Virus record (IMG/VR): IMGVR_UViG_3300034031_000013
Location: 1 to 64,000 of that record
DNA: 64,000 bases
Reading direction: 5' to 3' (one strand)
DNA from: a virus
Made by a program: the position numbers and the translations under genes. Shown here one piece after another: positions 12,494 through 60,911 of this stretch; the first letter of the stretch is position 1; each line of letters begins with the position of its first letter. The notes under the pieces are model-generated. The model saw only the letters and a list, made by a program, of their open reading frames with translations, did not search any database and was not told where the DNA came from.

Positions 12494-12564
12494 TGGGGGA
12501 TAGTTTAATTAATAGAACGTTGGCTTCATGCCATCAGATGCAGGTTTGAATCCTGCTCCCTCAA
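12494..12564 (+). tRNA. tRNA, best fold has anticodon UCA
   Basis: Acceptor TGGGGGA (12494-12500) pairs with TCCCTCA (12557-12563), with discriminator A and no CCA directly after. D-arm is GTTT with GAAC; the T-arm is a full GCAGG-TTTGAAT-CCTGC. The anticodon arm GTTGG-CTTCATG-CCATC (one T-T mismatch) has U33 and anticodon UCA, which reads the stop codon UGA. If shifted by one it would be CAU (Met), but the stem is then broken. UGA is used as a normal stop by this phage, so a UCA tRNA would be a suppressor. Confidence 0.72.
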
Positions 12565-12582
12565 CTAACCAAATCAAGCACC

Positions 12583-25355: not shown

Positions 25356-25919
25356 TTATTTATATTCGATTAGGATATAAGGGAACTTGGTTTGCTTGTT
25401 CCGTTTTAGTTGATCTTTTAGAGACTCCCTGAATGAAGCCCATTGTGGCTTAGGGATTGTTTGGCAACCCTCCGAGCTAGTTGTATTCATTCCCCCATCG
25501 TGAATATTAATCCAAAAAGGGGAGGCGGGACTATCCTTTACTATACCGTCTTTCCCATCTCTAACCACCTGTATTCCGAAACTTGCCTGCCTAAAAGCCT
25601 CCCTTGGGTTCTTGCCTGAAATCCCATGTATCCCAACCTTGTAAAACACTACTTGAGGTGCAACCAATGTCGCTATCCCTTGCCTTGTTACCGATGGGTC
25701 TGTATTTGCGTTAAACGATGCGTACATATCGGGCGAAATGATAAACATTGCATCGTCGTAAATTCCAACATCATTCTTTAAAGGGTTGCCCATAGTAGAC
25801 TTGTAGTACCCTCTAATGCCCAATACCTTAACAGGGTATTCATCTAAGCCGAAAGCCGATAACTCCTTTAAAGCGTCTTGCAATGTCATCTTGGGTTTAC
25901 TGTTTGGTATTGCGCTCAT
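25356..25919 (-). CDS. Endolysin candidate (peptidoglycan-acting), 187 aa
   Basis: The C-terminal half has 'KVGIHGISG', 'FGIQVVRDG', 'PFWINIHDGG' and 'TSSEGCQTIP'. The His-Asp and Ser-x-Gly-Cys order resembles YkuD-type catalytic centres and is a known pattern in phage lysis proteins. It has its own late promoter and is followed by a holin candidate and a spanin-like gene. No signal peptide, so export would depend on the holin. The exact bond cut is unknown. Confidence 0.65.
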   Translation of the reverse strand: MSAIPNSKPKMTLQDALKELSAFGLDEYPVKVLGIRGYYKSTMGNPLKNDVGIYDDAMFIISPDMYASFNANTDPSVTRQGIATLVAPQVVFYKVGIHGISGKNPREAFRQASFGIQVVRDGKDGIVKDSPASPFWINIHDGGMNTTSSEGCQTIPKPQWASFRESLKDQLKRNKQTKFPYILIEYK

Positions 25920-25930
25920 TGTCTGATTTT

Positions 25931-25992
25931 TGGGTAAAAAGAAAGTGCCTTACTGTTTGATGTAATAAAGTTACACCATTAGGTAAGGCACT
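25931..25992 (-). terminator. Terminator enclosing a late promoter
   Basis: AGTGCCTTAC (25944-25953) and GTAAGGCACT (25983-25992) form a perfect 10-bp stem. On the minus strand the stem is followed by TTTCTTTTTA. The 29-nt loop contains the -7 box of the endolysin promoter (25966-25973). RNA coming from upstream would stop here, while RNA starting in the loop lacks the first arm and should escape. Confidence 0.72.
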
Positions 25993-26000
25993 TTTGAGGC
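25966..26000 (-). promoter_or_regulatory. Late promoter (endolysin unit)
   Basis: -7 box TAACTTTA on the minus strand (25966-25973), 13-bp gap, then the shared late element, plus-strand GGCACTTTTGAGGC (25987-26000). See the late-promoter finding. Confidence 0.65.
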
Positions 26001-26037: not shown

Positions 26038-26069
26038 TTGTATATTTTAATGTTTATTACCTACATTTG
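26038..26069 (+). promoter_or_regulatory. Host-type promoter for the cargo genes
   Basis: TTG (26038-26040), 21-bp gap, TACATTTG (26062-26069). This is a regular Bacteroidota housekeeping promoter without the late element, so the two genes after it can be expressed in the lysogen. Confidence 0.65.
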
Positions 26070-26079
26070 CTTCTAATTT

Positions 26080-26118
26080 GATAAAAAAACTACCAATATG
26101 ATAAAAAAACTACCAATA
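26080..26118 (+). repeat. Tandem 19-bp duplication at a start codon
   Basis: GATAAAAAAACTACCAATA occurs twice in a row (26080-26098 and 26100-26118, one T between). The second copy encodes the first residues of the lipoprotein and its ATG lies at the junction. Probably a slippage duplication that moved or made the start. Confidence 0.8.
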
Positions 26119-26517
26119 CTACTATTGGCTTTAATGTCAGTAAGCTGCGGTGAAATTAAGCCGTACTCAACATTCCTACTAGACGCAGAAGCTTATGTTA
26201 ACAACAAGAAGGTGCTTAGTAATATCGCTTTTCTAAGTCCAGCGCAAGAGTATATTGTTAAAGATTCACAAGCACTGACAGATTACTTTAAAAGCAATCC
26301 CGAGAACTCCAAAAAATCCACCTACAGGTATATGGCTGACTTGCCAGCGGGTAATTACATTATCGCAATCCAAATAATCGACAGTAGTGTAACTAATATG
26401 ATTGGTTCTTATGCCTACAAGCAAATAAGGCTTGATGAACAACATCTAGGAGCAGAGAATGTAATGCGATTCGCCCTCTCAAATAGGAGAACCCGCCAAA
26501 ACTGGAAAGAAGATTAG
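26098..26517 (+). CDS. Lipoprotein, 139 aa, likely lysogenic-conversion gene
   Basis: Signal peptide with lipobox 'LMSVSCGE' (C17), so the mature protein is lipid-anchored in the envelope. The body is beta-rich with 'DLPAGNYIIAIQI'. It is on the strand opposite all late genes, has a host-type promoter, and is followed by an acyltransferase. Such cargo usually changes the cell surface, for example to block superinfection. No family recognised. Confidence 0.75.
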   Translation: MIKKLPILLLALMSVSCGEIKPYSTFLLDAEAYVNNKKVLSNIAFLSPAQEYIVKDSQALTDYFKSNPENSKKSTYRYMADLPAGNYIIAIQIIDSSVTNMIGSYAYKQIRLDEQHLGAENVMRFALSNRRTRQNWKED

Positions 26518-26536
26518 ACCCCCTGTATATACCTTG

Positions 26537-27601
26537 ATGAAAAATACTATCCGTCCTTTTAATTGGGAATTATTATCAATAACCAGATTTGTACTCGCGT
26601 TCATAGTGCTGGCGAATCACTTAAAAGATTTTACAAGTATTGGGATTTTCAATATATTCCCGATGTTTGGAGCGTTTGAAGCTATTTTTGGATTTCTGCT
26701 GATTAGTGGATTGTCAATTGGAAAGTCAATAGCTAAAAATAAAGAATCATATTTCAAAAGACGGGCAAACCGTATCTACCCTGTATACATAGCTAGTATA
26801 CTGTTTCAATGGGCTGTGATTCAACCTACAAGCGTTGATTTGTTGTTTATTGGGGTGTTGCTTTTGAATGTCCTTTTCCTGAATCAGATACTCACAAACA
26901 TATCATTTGTAGAACCTGCGTGGACATTAGCCGTTGAGGTATGGCTATACTGCCTAGCCCCTTGGTTTCTTAAGTTGTCATTTAAGCAGGTTTTTGTAAT
27001 TATCTACACTTCGGTTATATGTTACGTAGCGTTCACTTGTGGCCGTACATTATTCAACTGGAATTACTACTCAGGAATAGGATATGGGCTAAATATCTTA
27101 TTTTTAGCTTTTGTTTGGGTAATAGGATTCGCCCTTGCTGTTTTCCCTGAAAAAAGAAGATTTATAATATTAAATATCGCATTAATATTTATTCTACATA
27201 TTGGGTTGTCTGCTTCGATACAGGCAGCGTACCGTTATAAGCATAATGAGGTTAGTATGTTTATCGGTAGCGATCTTATAGGCTTCGCATTTAAGTCTTT
27301 ATGTTTATTAATGGTATACCTAGTAGTTGTCTATAATCATAGGTTCCCTACATTCACAACTTTTACCAAAAAAACATTCACATTGCTTGGTAATATATCC
27401 TACCCATTATATTTAACGCATATCACTTCATTCGTTTTATTGAAAAAGTGGAACATTAGCAACTCAACGGGCATGATTGTCTTTTCGTTAGGGGTTTCGT
27501 ATATTATATATATTCTATTTGACTCTTATAGTAAAAAACGAGAAGTAAAAGGAATATCTAAGCCTTTTTCAGATAAGATTTTAGAATATACTGGAAATTG
27601 A
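26537..27601 (+). CDS. Acyltransferase 3 family membrane protein, 354 aa
   Basis: About ten transmembrane helices. N-terminal 'LLSITRFVLAFIVLANHL' has the R-x10-H pair of acyltransferase-3 enzymes, then 'FGFLLISGLSIGKS', 'YFKRRANRIYPVY' and 'WTLAVEVWLYCLAPW'. These enzymes add acetyl or other acyl groups to surface sugars; phage copies change O-antigen or capsule and so receptor access. Start at the ATG at 26537. Converges with the tail gene at 27612, 11 bases apart. Confidence 0.87.
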   Translation: MKNTIRPFNWELLSITRFVLAFIVLANHLKDFTSIGIFNIFPMFGAFEAIFGFLLISGLSIGKSIAKNKESYFKRRANRIYPVYIASILFQWAVIQPTSVDLLFIGVLLLNVLFLNQILTNISFVEPAWTLAVEVWLYCLAPWFLKLSFKQVFVIIYTSVICYVAFTCGRTLFNWNYYSGIGYGLNILFLAFVWVIGFALAVFPEKRRFIILNIALIFILHIGLSASIQAAYRYKHNEVSMFIGSDLIGFAFKSLCLLMVYLVVVYNHRFPTFTTFTKKTFTLLGNISYPLYLTHITSFVLLKKWNISNSTGMIVFSLGVSYIIYILFDSYSKKREVKGISKPFSDKILEYTGN

Positions 27602-27611
27602 TTCGAGGTAA

Positions 27612-30593
27612 TTACTTCTTAAACCAAACTTCTTTCAGATTAATCCACTTGCGATACGCTGGTGCCCCATCATTTATAAAGCAGGTTACTCTAAGCTTTG
27701 TAGGATTATTAATGTTCGCACCTGCTTCTGATAGTGTGCTCGTTGTTTGGACTGCATGATTCGCGTATTTGAATGAAAGAATCCCATTATTCGCACTTAT
27801 AGACAATGGTTGATGCTTTCTTACCTGCAATAGCAAACGTACCCTGCCTGCTTCATCTGCCAACACAGTTTGCTTGATGGTTTTGTCGTTTCCGGTAATC
27901 CTCAATCCTTGATATTGTTCAGTACCTAGATTATTGTCGGTGATGAAAAACCTTGCTATAACCTTATTTGCGCTGTCAATAACATCATAATAAATACCAG
28001 CAAGATTGCCGGTAGCGCCACCATGAAACTCATTGTTTTCAAAGCTGATTAAGGATGTAAGTTGCCAAACAGGAGTATTGGTATTAACACCCAATGAGAA
28101 AGTTTCTACCGCATCAACCGAAGGGTCAAGTGTTTTTATCCAAATGTCTTTGCTCTTTGCTACATCGTAAGAATGTTCTCCTACCGTAATTAATGCAGAT
28201 GGATTCGTATAGCCATCACCGTAATCGTTTAAAGGGAACCTAGTTATACCTAGCAACCCATTGACAACAGTTTGACCGCTCACAAGACCGCTTAAAACAT
28301 CTAATCCTTTGCTGGTTACAGAAAGAGCTGTACTGGTAGCAGTTTGGATTTGAATGGTATTTAAACCTGTGATTCTCCATAAGTGAATACCACCGTGAAC
28401 ACTTTCATCGCCGTGAATAAGGTACATCACTCCGTTTATTTCGAATAGCTGAGGTGTAACTGCGTTACCCGCAACTCCCTCCAATGGATAGTCTGATAGC
28501 CTGTCAGCACCAAACGTATTTATATACAATCCGCTTTCGTGGAGATGGGTGTAATAGTTGCACTGTCCACCTTTTCTAAACTCCCCATAATCTCCCCACA
28601 TAACATTACTGCCTAAAGCCATTGCCACATTCCCGGCATTTCCCGAGTAGGGTTTGTTTTCTGGCGGATCGCTAGCAGGCCGCCTGTTATAGTTTCCAAT
28701 ATCAAACCTTCCATCGGTGGGATAGTCGCCTTTATATCCTATACGAGTGGTTCTTGCATCTCTCCAAAGAAACTGACCTGTACTCACATCAATTGCCCCA
28801 AGCCTGAAACTATCTTTATCAAATTCGCTTACACCTCCCTGGAAAGAAAGCAGATAGCCCGATTGAGTAACCTCCCCTGCTAGTGGTTGTCTTGGACCGC
28901 CTGCTTTGGGGTCTTTATCACCAACAGTTACAGAAGCAACGTTTTGAACCGTACCATAAACAGGATTATGTTGAGCCGTAAAGCTTAGTAAGGGCTTGGA
29001 AATCCATGTTTGTACTTTGGTAGTATCATTGAACAGGTAGTTAGATTTTATAGAGCCATCGGGATACATTTTCCCGAAAGGAATATCCATTACAACCCCT
29101 GTATTTCTTAACCCTGAAACTGTATTTAGTTCAACGATATGGTACGCATCCTCTCTTACTCCGTAGGTTCTTCCGTTGGATAATGTGGCAAACTCTTTTA
29201 ATGTAGCATAAACACCATCGCTTGATTCTTGCCAGTTGTATTTAAGAACAGCCTTTTGCCTGATGTCGGCGGCTGAATAATCAACTTCGTATTCAAGAAA
29301 GCCGGCAATTAACCTTGATGGATTGTTCTTGTCAACTAAAGTGTTGTACGTTCTCCCCAAGTAGGAAACCTTCTCTATTAGAACATTAGATGCTGAAAAA
29401 TGCAGCATTCTGAAATTACCAGGATCAACAACCCAATAGCTGCCATCATTAAGAATCGCTAACGAACCAGCATCCCGTATCCCTTCCACGTATTTCCTAA
29501 AGCAGAACTTGTTATCAGCTACTACCGGGCTGTTAATGTTTCCTCCTGCAATGCCTATGCTATTGGTTTGAACGCCCGTAGTAGTGTTATAACATTTTAC
29601 TTGCTGTCCTGCACTCCCTCCATTCACAACCCCAACTGTTGAGCCGTTTATATAAATGTCAAGTACGTTGTTAAAAGCCGGAAGGGTTAGCGAAATACTG
29701 CCTAAGCTACCATCGCTATTAAGAACCCGTTTAGTAATTGTATCATTCGAACTTACCCAAATAGTAGAACCTTCTGCCCATAATTGCTTAGGTGCTGTGA
29801 TGGCGATATTCCTTACAAATGCGCCTGTTAGCTTATTGTAAACACCGATAATATTAGCATCCTTTCTTGGGATGAACAGATAAGTAGTTCCAACAGATAC
29901 GCCCGAAATCTTTACTCCGTCCGTTCTAAGGCCAATGGAACTGAATGTCGTTCCCTCCTGCATCTTTATGTTTGTGCCGGAAGAAAACGTTACCACTTCA
30001 TTATTATCTACCCTTGTAGCGAAAACAAAGGTGCTGTTTGGGTTATATGGATCAAACCCTGCCCAATAAACGTAAGTGCCGTCTGTTGTGAGGTACTCTG
30101 TTTTCTGATTGTTGCCTTCCTGTATGTTTATAGCGTCTTTCCTTATCTGAGGGGTATTTAGTTCAAAGTAGTACTGTGCCGCCCTTCCTTCACCATATCC
30201 GCTACATAGATAAGCTCTGTTGCCTGTAATTCTTATTCCTTCATAAGCATCCCAAGGACGGTGCATATCATCGCCAACCTGATTTGTGGATGAATTGCCC
30301 ATTACACCAAGCCACTCATACTTCACATCATGCGATAAAACTCTTATCTCATAAGAACTTCTTGGAAGCGGGGCAACTTCCCCAAAGTCGAGCAACCCAT
30401 CCCATTTTCTTACGTGCGTTCCAGCCTCGAAAAATTCACCAGACCAAAGGTTTCTGACTTTATTAGGGCTATTTTTAACGTAGACGGCTGCACTTTTCTT
30501 TCCTGCTGTTGCCAAGGTAAAGGAGAAGTTATCACCAACCGGCTGAACCGGAACTGTTATTATTCTGATGCCCAGTACTTTTGTCTTTGCCAT
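27612..30593 (-). CDS. Tail spike/fibre protein, beta-propeller-like, 993 aa
   Basis: N-terminal 100 residues look like an Ig-like FlgD-type domain ('GTHVRKWDGLLDFGEV', 'SSYEIRVLSHDVKYEW'). A long section (about 110-750) has repeated blade-like strands with 'YVYWAGFDP', 'SYWVVDPGNF', 'YLFIPRKD' that suggest one or two beta propellers. The C-terminal part reads like a jelly-roll. Probably a receptor-binding virion protein. It starts one base after the upstream fibre gene's stop and is the last gene of that unit. Confidence 0.72.
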   Translation of the reverse strand: MAKTKVLGIRIITVPVQPVGDNFSFTLATAGKKSAAVYVKNSPNKVRNLWSGEFFEAGTHVRKWDGLLDFGEVAPLPRSSYEIRVLSHDVKYEWLGVMGNSSTNQVGDDMHRPWDAYEGIRITGNRAYLCSGYGEGRAAQYYFELNTPQIRKDAINIQEGNNQKTEYLTTDGTYVYWAGFDPYNPNSTFVFATRVDNNEVVTFSSGTNIKMQEGTTFSSIGLRTDGVKISGVSVGTTYLFIPRKDANIIGVYNKLTGAFVRNIAITAPKQLWAEGSTIWVSSNDTITKRVLNSDGSLGSISLTLPAFNNVLDIYINGSTVGVVNGGSAGQQVKCYNTTTGVQTNSIGIAGGNINSPVVADNKFCFRKYVEGIRDAGSLAILNDGSYWVVDPGNFRMLHFSASNVLIEKVSYLGRTYNTLVDKNNPSRLIAGFLEYEVDYSAADIRQKAVLKYNWQESSDGVYATLKEFATLSNGRTYGVREDAYHIVELNTVSGLRNTGVVMDIPFGKMYPDGSIKSNYLFNDTTKVQTWISKPLLSFTAQHNPVYGTVQNVASVTVGDKDPKAGGPRQPLAGEVTQSGYLLSFQGGVSEFDKDSFRLGAIDVSTGQFLWRDARTTRIGYKGDYPTDGRFDIGNYNRRPASDPPENKPYSGNAGNVAMALGSNVMWGDYGEFRKGGQCNYYTHLHESGLYINTFGADRLSDYPLEGVAGNAVTPQLFEINGVMYLIHGDESVHGGIHLWRITGLNTIQIQTATSTALSVTSKGLDVLSGLVSGQTVVNGLLGITRFPLNDYGDGYTNPSALITVGEHSYDVAKSKDIWIKTLDPSVDAVETFSLGVNTNTPVWQLTSLISFENNEFHGGATGNLAGIYYDVIDSANKVIARFFITDNNLGTEQYQGLRITGNDKTIKQTVLADEAGRVRLLLQVRKHQPLSISANNGILSFKYANHAVQTTSTLSEAGANINNPTKLRVTCFINDGAPAYRKWINLKEVWFKK

Positions 30594-31945
30594 TATATTT
30601 CCGTTAGGCTAATCTTATCAATAGCGACATTTTTTACCCCATCTCCGGCGGTGTTTACCTCTTCGGCATTTTCATGCAGAACTGCATAGATGTCTACGTT
30701 AGGGCTGTTTTCTGCAAGCGTGAAGTCCATGATGCCGTTATAGTACCCGTTGGTTAACGATGTTATTGAAGCTGTACAATTAGAATCATCAATTATGACA
30801 CCTGTAGAGCCGTTGAACTTTGCTTTTACAAGTAGGTTATTACAGAACAACAAGAAAGTCACAAAATCAAACCCATCAGTGTTAAATCCAAATGCAACTC
30901 TGTAATTTTTACCCGTGACGAGATTGACGGGTACGCCGGATTTGTATACATTATGATCTACAGCGAAAGCTTGAGGGGTGATTTTAGCGGCTGTTAATGT
31001 CCCATCTACCGCTATAGCTGCGTTTAAGTCAAGCGAAGTTCCACCGCTAACTGAATAAGTGCTATTATTGAATTGATAGTCTGCTAAAATATTTACTGCC
31101 GATACGGCGGCTTGGGTTGTTGCACTTTGTGTGGCACTCCAAGCACTATCTACATACCCCGATGCCTGCGACTTAACCCTAAAGTAATAAAGCGTTGAAG
31201 CGGTTAAAGCAGTTTTTGTGTAAGTGTTTAAAGCTCCTGTATAAATTTGCGTTGTCCCTGTAAAATCCGAATTAGAGGCTATTTCAACTATTGAATTGGT
31301 CGCATTCACATCATCCGTCCAATCAGTTTTTATAGAGGTATCGCTTAATACCGTGGGCGTTAAGGCAGGTGTTGTTAGTTGGGTTTGTACACCACCGCCA
31401 CCAGTTAAGGCGGAAAATGCAAAACCGCTGTTAGTCACTGCCAAAACGCTCCCTACTGTAGATGCCCCTGTAAATGTTTGAAGGACAGCCTTGATTAGTT
31501 CTGCAAATGCAGGGATATTTGGGTCTACTCGCTTAAAGGCAGGTTCCTCGCCCTGCGCTGGAACATCAACTAGATCAAACTGCGGAAATTCGTAGCCTGT
31601 TAGAAACTCATCGTCTATCTTCCCATTGTCGTCTAAAAGGTCCTCGCCGCCTCCGCCACCACCGCCTGATGCCAACACAGGGGTTAGTAAGTCAACAAGA
31701 GCTGACTTAGTGCCCGAAAACGTTACACCATTTACCTGAACCGTATCGACCGTTAGATTAATCGAATAATAATCGCCAGGGTCTTTCTCACCACGCCCTA
31801 CCTCGACATAAACACCATTAGCCGTTTCCTCTACCGTAGAGGCTTTATTTACGTAGCTCCGAACGATAGGCGCATTAGTGTAACTGTTGACGGAGAGGCT
31901 TATGGTAAAGCCCGATGAATCTGATGTGAAAGCGTATGTTGCCAT
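30593..31945 (-). CDS. Tail fibre protein with fibronectin III-like domain, 450 aa
   Basis: N-terminal attachment-like part, a Gly-rich linker (SGGGGGGGED, about 95-104), then a fibronectin type III-like domain ('TYTKTALTASTLYYFRVKSQ', 'YVDSAWSATQSATT') and a C-terminal carbohydrate-binding-like jelly-roll. Such proteins link or decorate tail fibres. First gene of its own late transcription unit (promoter at 31990-32024). Confidence 0.75.
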   Translation of the reverse strand: MATYAFTSDSSGFTISLSVNSYTNAPIVRSYVNKASTVEETANGVYVEVGRGEKDPGDYYSINLTVDTVQVNGVTFSGTKSALVDLLTPVLASGGGGGGGEDLLDDNGKIDDEFLTGYEFPQFDLVDVPAQGEEPAFKRVDPNIPAFAELIKAVLQTFTGASTVGSVLAVTNSGFAFSALTGGGGVQTQLTTPALTPTVLSDTSIKTDWTDDVNATNSIVEIASNSDFTGTTQIYTGALNTYTKTALTASTLYYFRVKSQASGYVDSAWSATQSATTQAAVSAVNILADYQFNNSTYSVSGGTSLDLNAAIAVDGTLTAAKITPQAFAVDHNVYKSGVPVNLVTGKNYRVAFGFNTDGFDFVTFLLFCNNLLVKAKFNGSTGVIIDDSNCTASITSLTNGYYNGIMDFTLAENSPNVDIYAVLHENAEEVNTAGDGVKNVAIDKISLTEI

Positions 31946-31958
31946 TTAGTATCCTTTT

Positions 31959-32013
31959 AAAAGCGAAAAGCCCTACTGTTTTATGTACTTAAAAATACAC
32001 TAAACAATAGGGC
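31959..32013 (-). terminator. Terminator enclosing a late promoter
   Basis: In the minus-strand RNA, GCCCUAUUGUUU (32013 to 32002) pairs with AAACAGUAGGGC (31981 to 31970), including one U-G pair, then UUUUCGCUUUU. The loop holds the -7 box of the fibre promoter (31990-31997). Same design as at 25931. Confidence 0.72.
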
Positions 32014-32024
32014 GCTTTTGGCGG
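31990..32024 (-). promoter_or_regulatory. Late promoter (tail-fibre unit)
   Basis: -7 box TATTTTTA on the minus strand (31990-31997), 13-bp gap, late element GGCGCTTTTGGCGG on the plus strand (32011-32024). Confidence 0.75.
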
Positions 32025-32045: not shown

Positions 32046-32465
32046 CTAAGTGTCGTACTTTTTTGGCAACCGTTCCTCTAACAGCGTAAACAGTTTAGTA
32101 AAGTGAATACTTGTTTCTTCGTTTCGTTGATTTTGAGTGCGTATAAAGCTCTCTAATTTTGAGTCTATCTTAACTACCTCTTTTTGGTTTTTCATCATCA
32201 CCTCGTCTAGCTTTCTGCCGTACTCGCCAAACTTCTTTTCATTAGATTCTTTCTCCCAATGCACTTGACTCGCAAGCAGTGAAGCCTTCCCTTCCATTTC
32301 GCGCTGGGCGAGAATCGTAGCCTTATTGGCTAGCTCCTTCTCTGCTAGTAATTGCCCTGACTCTAGCTTCTCTTGAGGTTTACGGAAGAAGTGGTAAACG
32401 GAAAAGATAAATCCTAGAATACCTCCTACGCTTAGTATGTTCGGTAGTGTTATTTCAAATCCCAT
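32046..32465 (-). CDS. Membrane-anchored coiled-coil protein, 139 aa
   Basis: One transmembrane helix near the N-terminus (ILSVGGILGFIFSVYHFF) and a long helical coil rich in Lys and Glu. Resembles phage accessory proteins near tail spikes or lysis genes (anchored coil facing the cytoplasm or periplasm). Function not determined. Last gene before the terminator-promoter at 31959-32024. Confidence 0.6.
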   Translation of the reverse strand: MGFEITLPNILSVGGILGFIFSVYHFFRKPQEKLESGQLLAEKELANKATILAQREMEGKASLLASQVHWEKESNEKKFGEYGRKLDEVMMKNQKEVVKIDSKLESFIRTQNQRNEETSIHFTKLFTLLEERLPKKYDT

Positions 32466-35166: not shown

Positions 35167-35201
35167 CAAAGATAACCTCTACATAAAGGCGGTTTTGGCG
35201 G
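35167..35201 (-). promoter_or_regulatory. Late promoter (spike unit)
   Basis: -7 box TATCTTTG on the minus strand (35167-35174), 13-bp gap, late element GGCGGTTTTGGCGG on the plus strand (35188-35201). Directly after the terminator of the giant gene. Confidence 0.8.
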
Positions 35202-41379: not shown

Positions 41380-41414
41380 CAAATATACCTAAGATACAAA
41401 GGCGATATTAGGGG
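41380..41414 (-). promoter_or_regulatory. Late promoter (giant gene)
   Basis: -7 box TATATTTG on the minus strand (41380-41387), 13-bp gap, divergent late element GGCGATATTAGGGG on the plus strand (41401-41414). The ATG begins 3 bases after the -7 box, so the mRNA is probably leaderless. Confidence 0.6.
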
Positions 41415-42273: not shown

Positions 42274-42281
42274 CAAAGATA
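42274..42281 (-). promoter_or_regulatory. Promoter -7 box for the gene at 41923
   Basis: TATCTTTG on the minus strand, without the late element. A TTG lies 22 bp upstream. Palindromic TTGTACAA (42299-42306) sits at the -33 position and could be an operator. Confidence 0.55.
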
Positions 42282-42324
42282 AAAACATTGTATATAAGTT
42301 GTACAATATATTTACAAATTGTTA

Positions 42325-51768: not shown

Positions 51769-51803
51769 TAAAAATACCCAATAAACTAAGGTGCTTTTAA
51801 CGA
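51769..51803 (-). promoter_or_regulatory. Late promoter (connector/tail unit)
   Basis: -7 box TATTTTTA on the minus strand (51769-51776), 13-bp gap, late element GGTGCTTTTAACGA on the plus strand (51790-51803). Confidence 0.65.
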
Positions 51804-51833
51804 AAAACCCCCACTATCTCTCGACGGCGGGGG
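51803..51833 (-). terminator. Rho-independent terminator
   Basis: CCCCCAC (51808-51814) with GCGGGGG (51827-51833), one G-U pair in RNA, TTTTT on the minus strand. Ends the unit containing the gene at 51860 and abuts the late promoter. Confidence 0.82.
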
Positions 51834-51859
51834 CAAGGCACTGATTATGGAAAGGGTCT

Positions 51860-55288: not shown

Positions 55289-55322
55289 CAAATTTAGTTT
55301 GAATTATAAAGCGTTTTTGGCG
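55289..55322 (-). promoter_or_regulatory. Late promoter (scaffold/capsid unit)
   Basis: -7 box TAAATTTG on the minus strand (55289-55296), 13-bp gap, late element AGCGTTTTTGGCG on the plus strand (55310-55322). It ends 2 bases before the stop codon of the portal gene. Confidence 0.75.
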
Positions 55323-55324
55323 TT

Positions 55325-57718
55325 TTAGGCTACCATTTGCTCACCTTCCATTCCCTCTTGTTCTGCCATATCCTGCTGTTCAGCCATGTGTTCTTCCATT
55401 GCTTCCTGCTCAGCTTTAGCTAGTTCCTCTTCGTCTAGTTCTTCGGTTTGCCTGTCAATGAGTTTCTGCACAAAAGCAGGTATCGCAAACCCCGTTTCCA
55501 TGTTTTTAAGGAGGGCTTGACTTACCAAGTTTTGGTAAATAGTATCACGGCTTATCTTCCCCTTGGCGGCTTCTTTTGCGATTGCCATTTCATCGGACTT
55601 CTGCTGATTTTCTTGAGCCAGTTGCATTTGCTGTTGTGCCTGTTGCCCTTGAATTGCCTGTGCTTCCTGCGCCTGTTTTGCCTGCGCCTCCTGTGCTTGT
55701 TTGGCTCGTTGCTTAGTTACGAACGAAAGGTATTTAATCGCTTTCTTGACGTTGGTTTTGGCGTACTCCCGAATGATAAGGGAATCTTCCAACTGAATCA
55801 ATCCTGCACCTAGCGACCGTTCGATATTCTGCTCTAATTGAGCCATTTCATTAGCAGGGCTACCTACCTTAATCATTACATCGTAATTACTATCGGTAAT
55901 GTCCTTGCGCTTCTTAATAAAGTCAGCATTGGCTTTATTAAGAAGCTTCATGTACATACTATTGGCATCGGCTGATTTTAAGGTATCCCAAAGCCTTATC
56001 GCAATCCCTTTGACCGAATTGCCCATGATGGATATTAAACCTCCGTAGATGTGAGATGTGGCGGTATTAGAGGCTTTGATTTGATTGTTCATTACATTCA
56101 TTCCCTGCCTCTCGCCTACGCCTATCCCATCTACTGCTTCGTTTACACTGATATAGGTTCTGATGTTGTTGAACTCGAAGTTGTAGATGTTAATATACTC
56201 CCCAAGGCTACTTCCCATGCTATAGGTCGCATCCTGCATAGGCGGGTTCTTATTCTCCCCGTCGATACCTTTGCTTGAGTAATACCTATCACCTGTTTGA
56301 AGTCTTATTTCGCGAAGCTTCATTGGATTTGTTTTACCAATGCCTTCGCCTAAATCAAGGTCTAGTACCGAATCAATATCCATCTGCACCCCATTTGGCG
56401 GGGTTGTAGCCATTAACTGCATGATTTTCAGTATGGCGATATCCATATTAATAATCGAGGATTCTAAGTAACCCATTGGGGACTTTGGCAACATCGTTCC
56501 GTCATTACTCAACATATAAATCGAGTAGCTGAACCGCACATCTTCTTTGTCCTCGTTGCTTCTTAGCAGGTTTTCCATTTCACCCCACTTGGGAAGTAAA
56601 TCGGTTCCTACAATCCAGGCTCCCGAATAAATGGTTGGTATCGGGTAAGAGAACGGTTGCTTGTTAGGGTTGCTTGCTTTACCTTCTTTAAGGTCGAATA
56701 TCTTACGACCGTTATTATCTTTCCCCTTTACTCCTGTGATGTATTTAGTGGCACGATATTCAAAGAACATAATATCAACTAAGTACCCATCATAAGGGCG
56801 GGAATTAACATTTACGTCCTCCCATGCGCTATTCCAATCTCCTAGATTAGACGGGTTGCCATTGCTGTTAATGTTGTTCTTGGCGGCTTTATATAACTCC
56901 TTTTCAGGGATATTAGGCCACATACAGCGAACATCGACAATGCTCATCCGTTCCATGTGACCGCAGTAAGGGACTTTTGCCGAGATGTTCAATCCTTCGG
57001 TTGTGCCGTAGAAAAGAAACTCGGATTTGATGCGCTTAAGGCGGATACGATTAACACCGTCGAAGTAATTTTGGGTTGCGGCAAGGGCGGTGTCTACCAA
57101 ATCTCCTACCACTTCTTTTTTAATATCTTCCCAATCGTTATTGTACAGAACAAAGTTTATTCCCTCCTCCATGAGAAGTTCTTCACGCTCTTTGTCGTTC
57201 AATTCCAGCCACATATCAAGTTCTTCCTCGTTCTCTGGAACAAAGGCGTTTGGATCTTCAAACTCGACTCCCGTTTCCTGATTTATCGCCCCGATGAACT
57301 CCTTTTCCTTCATTCTAAAGGCGGCATCGTTCTTCTTATCTTCCTTGCGCTGTTTTATTTCAAGGGATAGACCTGTACAATCTACACGTTCTACCCGCTC
57401 CATTATGGAGTTAATAAGTATATCTCGAAAGTGAGGTGCTATTGGGCGTGGATGGTATTCTAATTTTATAAAGGCTTCGGCAGGGTTTATTCCCATTATC
57501 TCCCAATACCTTGCCATAGGCTGTTTCCCCGAGGCGAAAGCTCTGCTCGTCTTGAACATATCGTTTCGCTTCTGATAGTAGCCGTTGGTTCCATCAATAG
57601 TGGCAGCGAAGATTGATCGGGCTACAGAAATACCATAAGACCGTGAGTTCTTAATGTTGTTTGGTAAAATCGGGCTTGGGAACACCCCTTTTTCAAACTC
57701 TATTTTGTCTTCTGCCAT
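55325..57718 (-). CDS. Portal protein, 797 aa
   Basis: Follows the large terminase as expected. N-terminal wing-like part, then 'LEYHPRPIAPHFRDILINSIMERVERVDC', a helical stem-like region near 480-600 and a Gln-rich C-terminal coil (QAQAIQGQQAQQQMQL). Portals of crAss-like and related short-tailed Bacteroidota phages are of this large size. It forms the DNA channel at one capsid vertex. Confidence 0.8.
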   Translation of the reverse strand: MAEDKIEFEKGVFPSPILPNNIKNSRSYGISVARSIFAATIDGTNGYYQKRNDMFKTSRAFASGKQPMARYWEIMGINPAEAFIKLEYHPRPIAPHFRDILINSIMERVERVDCTGLSLEIKQRKEDKKNDAAFRMKEKEFIGAINQETGVEFEDPNAFVPENEEELDMWLELNDKEREELLMEEGINFVLYNNDWEDIKKEVVGDLVDTALAATQNYFDGVNRIRLKRIKSEFLFYGTTEGLNISAKVPYCGHMERMSIVDVRCMWPNIPEKELYKAAKNNINSNGNPSNLGDWNSAWEDVNVNSRPYDGYLVDIMFFEYRATKYITGVKGKDNNGRKIFDLKEGKASNPNKQPFSYPIPTIYSGAWIVGTDLLPKWGEMENLLRSNEDKEDVRFSYSIYMLSNDGTMLPKSPMGYLESSIINMDIAILKIMQLMATTPPNGVQMDIDSVLDLDLGEGIGKTNPMKLREIRLQTGDRYYSSKGIDGENKNPPMQDATYSMGSSLGEYINIYNFEFNNIRTYISVNEAVDGIGVGERQGMNVMNNQIKASNTATSHIYGGLISIMGNSVKGIAIRLWDTLKSADANSMYMKLLNKANADFIKKRKDITDSNYDVMIKVGSPANEMAQLEQNIERSLGAGLIQLEDSLIIREYAKTNVKKAIKYLSFVTKQRAKQAQEAQAKQAQEAQAIQGQQAQQQMQLAQENQQKSDEMAIAKEAAKGKISRDTIYQNLVSQALLKNMETGFAIPAFVQKLIDRQTEELDEEELAKAEQEAMEEHMAEQQDMAEQEGMEGEQMVA

Positions 57719-57737: not shown

Positions 57738-57772
57738 CAAATTTACCCACGAAAACAAGGCGGTTTTGGCGG
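57738..57772 (-). promoter_or_regulatory. Late promoter (portal unit)
   Basis: -7 box TAAATTTG on the minus strand (57738-57745), 13-bp gap, late element GGCGGTTTTGGCGG on the plus strand (57759-57772), one base before the terminase stop. Confidence 0.8.
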
Positions 57773-57773
57773 A

Positions 57774-60700
57774 TTAAGCACCTCCTAGCCGATACGTCTT
57801 GATGTATCTGATACCTGACTGCTTTGATTGGATTGGCTTGGTTTTTTCTTTTAATGCCATAAGGGAATATCCAAATGCCATGCCCGCATCATAGTCGGTA
57901 CGTTCTTTAATGTTGAACTTGAGCATATCCCTTAAAATTCTAATGAAGTAGATTTTCTCCATGTTATTTAAGGCGTACTCTACCATTTCGGTAAGGTGTT
58001 CTTCCCGCGATTGCGTGTCTTGCGGGGCTATGCCGTATACTTCTGAGTCATCGGCACGTTTAGTAGTAACGAGGTAGCCGAATTTCTTTTTTTGGTCTAT
58101 AGGGCTTGCTAAGCGCCTTGCTTCGTCCGTTGCGTAATCCTCCCAATCGGTAGGTGAACGCTCGGCAAGCATCCGTATTCCGTAGTATTCTAAACCCCAA
58201 AAGATTTGATTGTGAAACTCCTGTTTAGTTTTTGGCCTGCCGATAAACATTGCTACTGGCATCCCTGAATTGTGCGGGTTAAGCGCATTTCGCCGTTTAA
58301 ATATCACACAGCAAGCATCCGAACCTTTATCAACCGTTTGCTTGGCGTTGGCGAATGTATCAAGCCCTGCCGCCCCGTACGAGGTGTTATCGGGGCATTT
58401 AATACTCCCCTTAAAGGCGAACTTATTTGCTTCTTCAAACGGCAGTAATTCAAGGATATGCCACATCCCTTCTGAATTATCTACAAATTCTACCTTTCCG
58501 CCATCGGGTTTCTTAAACAAGCCTCTACGCCCGTTTTCATCGCCTTTATGGGTAGCGTCGTTCCAAGGAGTTTTCCCTTTTGATTTTATAATTTCCTCTA
58601 CCCGCTCGATTTGATTATTGAGGTCGATTGTATTGAAGTGGCAAAGATTATTGGCGGATTTAAATACCTCCTCGGGATTGTAAGGAACCATACGAACCTC
58701 CTCCATGTAATCTTCGGGGTCGTTCTCTTTATTTTTACGCTGTAAATCGCAGTATTCTTTTGAGCCGATAAAGGCGTTTAGGCATCGAGGGTCTTTCTTA
58801 AGCCATTCTGTTTGCTCGGGTGTTGGGGTTTCTACAACGGAGTTGCCGAATTTGTCCACGAACCATTCATAGCCCATGAATCCTGGAATAAAGAGGCGGT
58901 ATAACTTCTTCTCGGTTTGCCCCATCGCATCCCGTTTCAACTGGCTTGAGCCGTCCCATACTGCTTTATAATTACTCCCGCCCTTATCTGCACTATTTAC
59001 GGTGGTAATCAATAGAAGCCGCCCAACGTTCTTGCCTGCAACTATACTTTTTAAAGCTATTGGCAGGTAAGCATTTATGTCAACCTCTTCCCATTTACCG
59101 CAATTCATCGAGAGGGTAAAATCCTCTAAAATCAACCGCTTGTCATCGAGGTTTTCCGTTTTCAGTTGTATCCCCACGTACTTACCAACACCTTCGGGTA
59201 TCACCTCTATTCTATTTCGCCTGTATTTAGCGGTTTGTTTATATGCCGGAAACTGCTTGCGGTTTAGTTTGGTTGGGATTATCGACAAATCACCACTTAT
59301 TGATACGACATAGCTATCCGTATTATAGTTTGTGTTTTTAAATCTGGGAGTTGATGTCGAGAAGCCTAACGATCTGGCAAGAAAGCAGATTTGGCCTATT
59401 AAATCTTCTCTTGACATGCAGATATGTATAGAGTATTTTCTTTGATCGCAATGACCATCTGTATCTATAATTCCTGCAAGTAACTGTAGCCGATTCTCCC
59501 TTGAATTAAACAGGTATTCATCCGGTATAAACTTATTTTTATAAACCCCCAATCGCTTCAACTCATTCAAAAGAGGATTTGATTTACTAGTTCTAACGTG
59601 CCTAACGAAATAAATACATTTGGCCTTTTTTGAATTTAGTGGCTGGTAAATTGATGTATCGTAGCCTAGTTTAGTTGCGTATTCTTTCAGATAGTCTATT
59701 AATTCACGATCTTCCGGTTCGTTTACAACAAACCCGATATTGCTACCAATCCCATCCCCAATCCAAGCACCGAAAACATAAGGGTCAATTAGGTTATCTA
59801 TTTCAGGAAAATCAATACCACTACTCCTTAGCCCAAATGTTGTCCGTTTCCTGTATTTGCCCAAGTTTATAAACTCCTCGGGGGTCATAGTCTTTATACC
59901 ATCGTCAAAAATTGACTTTACATTACACCTTTGCTCTAAGTATAACTTATGCTTTGAAGAAACGATATAATCTTTCGAGTAAGGCTGTTTGATACGGTAC
60001 ATGTCGTCGATACCCGAAACGGTATTTTGAACTTCTATTAGCTTCCCACCTTCGACAACAACCTTATCGCCAATCTTAATATCCTTAATCGCCTTGAAAG
60101 TATAGCCCTCAACCATGATTTTAGTTTCAGGATCGAAACACTCGTCAACTAAAAGCATCCATAATCCATCGCCGTCAAAAACGTTACCCGAAGTGGCTCT
60201 CCATTCAATCTTATTATTTAGTCCATCTCTGGTGCTAGATGTTGCCCGATCTTTAGAAGCTCTCTCTGGCGGTTTAGTTATATGTAAAACTTTAGCAGGG
60301 GTATCGTTGCCGCTAATGCGAGGTTTTAAAAACGGCGGCAGGCTAGCGAAGGCATTAACAAGCATCAACTTGAAAATCTTCTCCGCATCTCCTCCCGTCT
60401 TTGAAACTATTCCCTGTTCGATATTGGCCTTTATCAATGCGAATTGAAGCATTATGCTTATACTCATTGTAGAGACTCCAATACGCCTTCCCTTCATTAC
60501 GTTTCCGCCTCGACATCTGGGGTCGGAGAATACTATTTCCATAAATCGGAAGAATAAAAGCGAAGTATCCTTATATGTAGGGTACACCCCTTCCTTAGTA
60601 ATTGCCCATTGATGGAAGAAGTAACAGAACGCATTAAAGAACGTAGGGACTCCGTTAATTAGAATCCATTCACCGTTCATAATACGGTCTATTTCAGCTT

Positions 60701-60911
60701 CATACCAATCCCACTGTTCAGGAATAGGGTCTACATACCAGACCTTTCCCTGCTTGGGATCATCGTTCCAATCCCAAGACAAATATTCTTCGTGGCGATA
60801 CCATATTTGGTCTGTTTTTTTTAGATGAGAGCCGCGTATGTTTTTGATTTTCGGGATAGCAGGCGTAGTATAAATCAAGCCCTCGTAAATATCGAATGTC
60901 TGTACAGCCAT
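57774..60911 (-). CDS. terL: Large terminase subunit with intein, 1045 aa (699 after splicing)
   Basis: ATPase part: Walker A-like 'GRRIGVST' (about 142-149) and Walker B 'GLWMLLVDE' just before the intein. The intein occupies residues 258-603. The C-terminal nuclease part begins near 'GAAGLDTFANAKQTVDKGSD' with a probable metal Asp, and ends in 'MALKEKTKP'. Without the intein the length (699) fits large phage terminases of this group. It cuts and pumps DNA into the capsid through the portal encoded next. Overlaps the upstream gene by one base. Confidence 0.92.
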   Translation of the reverse strand: MAVQTFDIYEGLIYTTPAIPKIKNIRGSHLKKTDQIWYRHEEYLSWDWNDDPKQGKVWYVDPIPEQWDWYEAEIDRIMNGEWILINGVPTFFNAFCYFFHQWAITKEGVYPTYKDTSLLFFRFMEIVFSDPRCRGGNVMKGRRIGVSTMSISIMLQFALIKANIEQGIVSKTGGDAEKIFKLMLVNAFASLPPFLKPRISGNDTPAKVLHITKPPERASKDRATSSTRDGLNNKIEWRATSGNVFDGDGLWMLLVDECFDPETKIMVEGYTFKAIKDIKIGDKVVVEGGKLIEVQNTVSGIDDMYRIKQPYSKDYIVSSKHKLYLEQRCNVKSIFDDGIKTMTPEEFINLGKYRKRTTFGLRSSGIDFPEIDNLIDPYVFGAWIGDGIGSNIGFVVNEPEDRELIDYLKEYATKLGYDTSIYQPLNSKKAKCIYFVRHVRTSKSNPLLNELKRLGVYKNKFIPDEYLFNSRENRLQLLAGIIDTDGHCDQRKYSIHICMSREDLIGQICFLARSLGFSTSTPRFKNTNYNTDSYVVSISGDLSIIPTKLNRKQFPAYKQTAKYRRNRIEVIPEGVGKYVGIQLKTENLDDKRLILEDFTLSMNCGKWEEVDINAYLPIALKSIVAGKNVGRLLLITTVNSADKGGSNYKAVWDGSSQLKRDAMGQTEKKLYRLFIPGFMGYEWFVDKFGNSVVETPTPEQTEWLKKDPRCLNAFIGSKEYCDLQRKNKENDPEDYMEEVRMVPYNPEEVFKSANNLCHFNTIDLNNQIERVEEIIKSKGKTPWNDATHKGDENGRRGLFKKPDGGKVEFVDNSEGMWHILELLPFEEANKFAFKGSIKCPDNTSYGAAGLDTFANAKQTVDKGSDACCVIFKRRNALNPHNSGMPVAMFIGRPKTKQEFHNQIFWGLEYYGIRMLAERSPTDWEDYATDEARRLASPIDQKKKFGYLVTTKRADDSEVYGIAPQDTQSREEHLTEMVEYALNNMEKIYFIRILRDMLKFNIKERTDYDAGMAFGYSLMALKEKTKPIQSKQSGIRYIKTYRLGGA
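59103..60140 (-). other. Intein with LAGLIDADG homing endonuclease, 346 aa
   Basis: First residue Cys (CFDPETKIMVEGY, a Hint block A) and last residue Asn, followed by a +1 Cys (SMN|CGKWE). A block B-like region 'YIVSSKHKLYLEQR' lies about 70 residues in. Two dodecapeptides, 'YVFGAWIGDGI' and 'LLAGIIDTDGH', mark the endonuclease. Insertion falls exactly after the Walker B Asp-Glu, the most conserved part of the ATPase. The residue before the final Asn is Met rather than the usual His. Confidence 0.92.

Follow-up and report, generated by a model that had tools for sequence, protein, structure and literature searches.

How can one short stretch of phage DNA start the transcription of a gene and also stop the transcription that arrives from upstream? 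The question is raised by two sites, called here A (25.9 kb) and B (32.0 kb), in a 64,000-nucleotide window (the whole stretch of DNA that was analysed), which is part of a 75,857-base IMG/VR virus record. At both sites, a putative late promoter is enclosed by a hairpin with a T-rich tract directly after it. We consider it likely, with a probability of roughly 0.71, that both sites are self-insulating start points in which an intrinsic terminator encloses a promoter, with the termination itself inferred in the absence of transcript data.

Putative late promoters of a Bacteroidota podovirus

The window phage is a Bacteroidota podovirus with its late genes on the - strand. Its structural genes span roughly 25 to 63 kb of that strand and include, according to PHROGs, those for the portal (55325-57718, - strand), the large terminase subunit (57774-60911, - strand), the tail spike, and other virion proteins. 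The named relatives are podoviruses of Flavobacteriia, namely, Cellulophaga phages of the families Pachyviridae and Pervagoviridae and the Flavobacterium Elemovirus, whose listed terminase and portal matches all fall below 30% amino-acid identity. The nearest relative fetched, L027, encodes a portal 70% identical to that of the window phage and is available only as a 20-kb fragment. Promoter A is predicted to drive a gene of unknown function (25356..25919, - strand; 187 aa, PHROG 3000), and the first gene predicted to be driven by promoter B (30593..31945, - strand; 450 aa) shows a weak match to tail protein families. The genes adjoining A and B have no homologue in the fetched relatives, and 2 tail-region proteins used as queries found none in IMG/VR. 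Conservation at A and B could not be assessed, because no relative spans either junction.

The late motif, which was derived from the sequence upstream of - strand genes, consists of CCGCCAAAAnCGCCTT, exactly 11 bases, and TAnnTTTG or TAnnTTTA (TAnnTTTR). A pattern search allowing one mismatch recovered 7 copies, all with the invariant 11-base spacer and without exception on the - strand, and the reversed control returned 0. The same search, with one mismatch, did not find the motif in 6 terminase relatives; nor was it present in the record of L027 or in 14 Bacteroidota phages. Three loose matches in IMG/VR were rejected, lacking homology to the late proteins of the window. The full -7 box, TAnnTTTG, is present at 4 of the 7 late sites, and the boxes of A and B are one base off. 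The -33 TTG/TTTG, which would lie about 20 nt ahead of the -7 box, is absent from all 7 sites, which instead carry CGCCAAAAnCGCCTT with the 11-base spacer; the TTG criterion of Bacteroidota primary-sigma promoters is met by most of the crAss-like elements described below. Within the late motif, CGCC repeats recur with a 9-bp spacing (7 sites, window positions 25966-57767, - strand). They may point to a phage-encoded activator or sigma-like factor, although no such factor has been identified.

Nesting is restricted to 2 of the 7 late promoters, and the remaining 5 are ordinary or borderline. The promoter at 35168..35196 (- strand) has the ordinary tandem form, with a separate terminator, GGGAG...CTCCC followed by TTTTT, just upstream, and the one at 51770..51798 (- strand) is likewise directly preceded by a terminator (51807-51834). 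Given that the terminators at 35.2 and 51.8 kb lie immediately 5' of a late promoter, the terminator-before-late-promoter order recurs in this genome, and nesting can be seen as its compact version. The hairpin enclosing the promoter at 41381..41409 (- strand) is borderline (15 of 200 shuffles), and no terminator is associated with the promoters at 55290..55318 (- strand) and 57739..57767 (- strand), the latter being that of the portal gene.

Two hairpins that enclose a putative promoter

The nested hairpin of site A (25942..25994, - strand) has a perfect 12-bp stem, with the 5' arm at 25994-25983 and the 3' arm at 25953-25942 (AAAGTGCCTTAC and GTAAGGCACTTT, respectively), and an inner stem, GGTGTAA/TTACATC. 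On the - strand, the hairpin is followed by TCTTTTTACCC, including a T-rich tract (TCTTTTTA, 25934..25941, - strand), where the RNA 3' ends of read-through transcripts are predicted. Late promoter A (25966..25995, - strand) reads AAAAGTGCCTT-N11-TAACTTTA, with the box at 25973-25966, and its late element overlaps the 5' arm. The hairpin of site B (31970..32013, - strand) is nearly continuous over 44 nt, with a GCCCTA/TAGGGC base and a 4-nt loop, can be extended outwards as far as 32019, and precedes the T-rich tract TTTTCGCTTTT (31959..31969, - strand). Late promoter B (31990..32023, - strand) reads CGCCAAAAGCGCCCT-N11-TATTTTTA, and its box (31997-31990) sits near the apex of the almost continuous stem, where there is no open loop. 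Both sites thus show the structure of an intrinsic terminator, a stable stem with a T-rich tract directly after it, and factor-independent release of RNA at the tract is inferred from that structure. The T-tracts are moderate at both, however, and that of B is broken by CGC. Between the stop codon of the gene at 32046-32465 and the next gene, B is the sole terminator-like site. The two sites share the loop sequence TACATnAAACAGTA; their arms differ, yet stay paired, with at least one compensated pair.

The preliminary description had placed a stem with a T-run around the -7 box at both sites, which held, with the boundaries of A moving from 25944-25992 to 25942-25994. That the box lies in the loop held in part, given its position near the stem apex at B, and the nested boxes needed correction, both being TAnnTTTA rather than the full TAnnTTTG. 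The claimed overlap between the late element and a stem arm was confirmed: the late element supplies the 5' arm, and immediately beyond the predicted start comes the 3' arm.

This geometry is shown, and so is its statistical excess. Among 136 hairpin-plus-T candidates in the 64-kb window, A and B rank first and second by stability. When only the spacer and 3' flank were shuffled, with the late element and box left intact, 0 of 200 shuffles reached A and 0 of 200 reached B, whereas in the same test, 3 of the other late promoters were no better than their shuffles and 2 were borderline. Dinucleotide shuffles gave z = -4.5 for A and -6.3 for B. Also shown is the conditional folding: read-through RNA folds with -24.8 (A) and -31.0 (B) kcal/mol, as opposed to -1.2 (A) and -3.2 (B) kcal/mol for RNA begun at the predicted start, a contrast that holds irrespective of the exact start base chosen (overall range for RNA begun there, -1 to -4 kcal/mol).

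In the proposed mechanism, a polymerase arriving from the preceding late unit would copy both arms, yielding a stable RNA hairpin and a U-rich stretch, and read-through transcription would stop about 20 nt ahead of the next gene. The RNA of a polymerase starting at the enclosed late promoter would lack the 5' arm; the 3' arm and U-rich stretch alone would not fold, and transcription would run on into the gene. For the 5' half of the terminator, the late element would provide its A-tract and CGCC block, so that a complementary arm past the start would turn a late promoter into a nested one; we infer that such a resemblance would make nesting easy to evolve. Promoter activity, start position, termination efficiency, and the benefit, namely, independent late units with less interference, are all inferred from the sequence. 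Accordingly worded, the original proposals that only upstream RNA can fold and that each unit is insulated one way are supported, the former by the folding energies and the latter by the presence at both sites of the required geometry, far beyond chance, with termination and insulation remaining inferences. The view that each unit is insulated from the one before needs correction at A, where late RNA from upstream would reach the site as antisense read-through across 2 + strand genes (26098-27601) rather than from a co-directional gene ending beside it.

A covarying counterpart in crAss-like phages

Fourteen Bacteroidota phage genomes and relatives were scanned for hairpin-plus-T sites containing a -7 box. 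The surveyed phages showed no general enrichment of such boxes (5 versus 0 and 9 in the controls), and the survey yielded one clean case, at 35.1 kb of Bacteroides phage crAss001 (AAAACCCTTG-N20-TATATTTGCAAGGGTTTT; MH675552, 35081-35120; box TATATTTG), located between gp39 and gp40, the latter of which matches Pfam CrAss_Ring_2 (tail ring protein 2). Against a permuted-arm null, this element scored 30.5, with 0.15 expected at 24 or more, and none of the other nested host-type promoters in the set stood out. In the window itself, a host-type promoter with inverted arms (TATTGTACAA/TTGTATAATA) and no T-run is found at 42274-42306 (- strand), near chance level.

The TTG-N20-TAnnTTTG promoter is kept in 9 distinct phages from several genera of the Steigviridae, and its arms change together, as in the pairs CCCTTG/CAAGGG, CCATTG/CAATGG, ACATTG/CAATGT, and CTCTTG/CAGGAG. 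In this comparison, for which the arm register was set by eye, 4 of the 9 pairs carry compensatory changes on both sides, and 97.5% of cells are paired, a level reached by 0 of 5000 arm shuffles. A further 35 loci with 40-100% identity were collected from IMG/VR (relatives as a whole, L095-L106 and L110-L144), 34 of them with upstream sequence, and the box and its bracket are present in 31 of these 34. Of the exceptions, L140 retains a hairpin in which the box is degenerate, and L138 and L141 have neither; in these two, the preceding ORF stops within 10-12 nt of the gene and leaves no room for a promoter. Across whole elements, the stems are about 20 bp long, and folding z ranges from -5.5 to -11. 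A T-tract (5 or more T in 8) follows in about 23 of 32 distinct elements. One clade (L131-L134, L136, L137, L142, and L144) retains the hairpin with nearly fixed arms, GGCTCA/TGAGCC, has no T-run, and lacks the TTG at the usual -33 position. Strict intrinsic termination therefore does not cover every case; in this clade, termination may proceed without a T-run, or the hairpin may act otherwise, for example, in processing or as a translation block.

The stems also indicate at which level pairing is maintained. A G-T pair on the sense strand is a wobble in the sense RNA and an A-C mismatch in the antisense RNA. Outside the -7 box, we counted 25 G-T versus 2 A-C combinations (48 versus 2 with the box included), the 2 kinds being scored equally; as the rows share ancestry, this tally cannot be read as a formal probability. 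This excess on the sense strand implies that pairing is kept in RNA of the promoter direction, in other words, in the read-through transcript. Within the hairpin, the side with the box does not vary, whereas its partner does, which fits the box being a promoter. The crAss-like case, which is independent of the window phage, thus shows a nested form kept by covariation.

Alternative explanations, known systems, and other features of the window

The nested terminator has points against it: only 2 sites exist in this genome, without a relative covering them, their boxes end in A, the T-tracts are moderate, and there are no transcript data. Two rivals deserve discussion, and we regard both as unlikely. 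The arms could form a DNA operator, bound by a dimeric regulator that controls the late promoter in between, with the T-run incidental. Palindromic operators over promoters are common, the arms are symmetric around the core promoter, and A and B share their loop sequence. However, the arms of A and B differ while still paired, those of the crAss-like phages vary widely and pair through the G-T wobbles of one strand (25 versus 2), which a DNA dyad would not favour, and T-rich tracts lie on the expected side in most elements. Alternatively, the hairpin could act in RNA without intrinsic termination, as a processing site, a 3'-end protector, or a translation block of read-through RNA. The long, near-continuous stems (at B, and of about 20 bp in crAss-like phages), the clade without a T-run, and the position of the hairpins about 25 nt ahead of start codons speak for this possibility, and the T-tracts at A, B, and about 23 of 32 distinct crAss-like elements speak against it.

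Chance or duplication, whereby 2 ordinary late promoters acquired accidentally complementary flanks, is very improbable: only 2 of 7 promoters are nested and the similar loops of A and B might reflect one copied event, but no shuffle (0 of 200 each) matched either site, the two are the top hairpins in 64 kb, and their arms differ with at least one compensated pair. A short invertible promoter with the arms as recombination sites, as in Bacteroides capsule loci, is practically ruled out. Invertible promoters flanked by inverted repeats are common in Bacteroidales, but the loci described in PMC12118408 have 183-345 bp between the arms rather than the about 30 nt seen here, and wherever a box was found in the crAss-like loci it points the same way, both orientations never being observed.

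The preferred reading, a promoter nested in a terminator, is a new arrangement of known parts, for which we found no description in the open-access literature searched (subscription papers were not covered). As with an intrinsic (Rho-independent) terminator, a unit ends in a stem and T-tract, and the junction of B has no other such site; the difference is that the arms enclose a complete promoter, to which one of them belongs. Tandem terminator-promoter junctions of phages also end a unit just before the next promoter, whereas here the 2 elements are nested and share bases, so that only upstream transcripts would be stopped. The lacI mRNA ends in the lac control region, and in the Sulfolobus virus SSV1, termination is linked to initiation. 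In these systems too, one unit terminates within the control region of the next, although neither is known to be built as a hairpin with its 5' arm upstream and its 3' arm downstream of the start. The Escherichia coli frd terminator, which is also the ampC attenuator, overlaps the control region of the next unit, with the promoter upstream of the whole terminator, so that both RNAs meet it; at the nested sites, the RNA of the promoter itself would escape. Attenuators and riboswitches differ in the same respect, given that here the predicted start lies between the arms, the native RNA lacks the 5' arm, and the terminator is not wholly downstream.

A bolder reading, to which we lean by a narrow margin, is that nesting represents a general means of insulation, evolved independently among Bacteroidota phages, which stops upstream transcripts only and which, in crAss-like phages, RNA-level covariation has maintained at a single structural-gene junction in several genera. 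Compact genomes would gain a one-way insulator of about 50 bp, in which one sequence answers to 3 constraints, as activator element, core promoter, and terminator arm. Genetic engineering of Bacteroides would obtain a portable part that can be tested, and since the conserved crAss-like case occurs in model phages available in culture (crAss001 and the PhiCrAssBcn phages), direct tests of the idea are possible.

Rfam models matched only 2 tRNAs in the window and neither A nor B. A tRNA at 12494-12565 (+ strand) has a UCA anticodon and is called tRNA-SeC by ARAGORN. TGA stops are rare in late genes (2 of 28) and frequent in + strand genes (12 of 29); from the tRNA and the stop usage we infer, tentatively and without a test, that TGA may be read late in infection. 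Finally, the 2 + strand genes at 26098-27601, which encode a short protein and an acyltransferase (Pfam Acyl_transf_3), are preceded by a host-type promoter, TTG-N21-TACATTTG, and the resulting insert in the - strand late region (26038-27601, + strand) possibly represents a moron.
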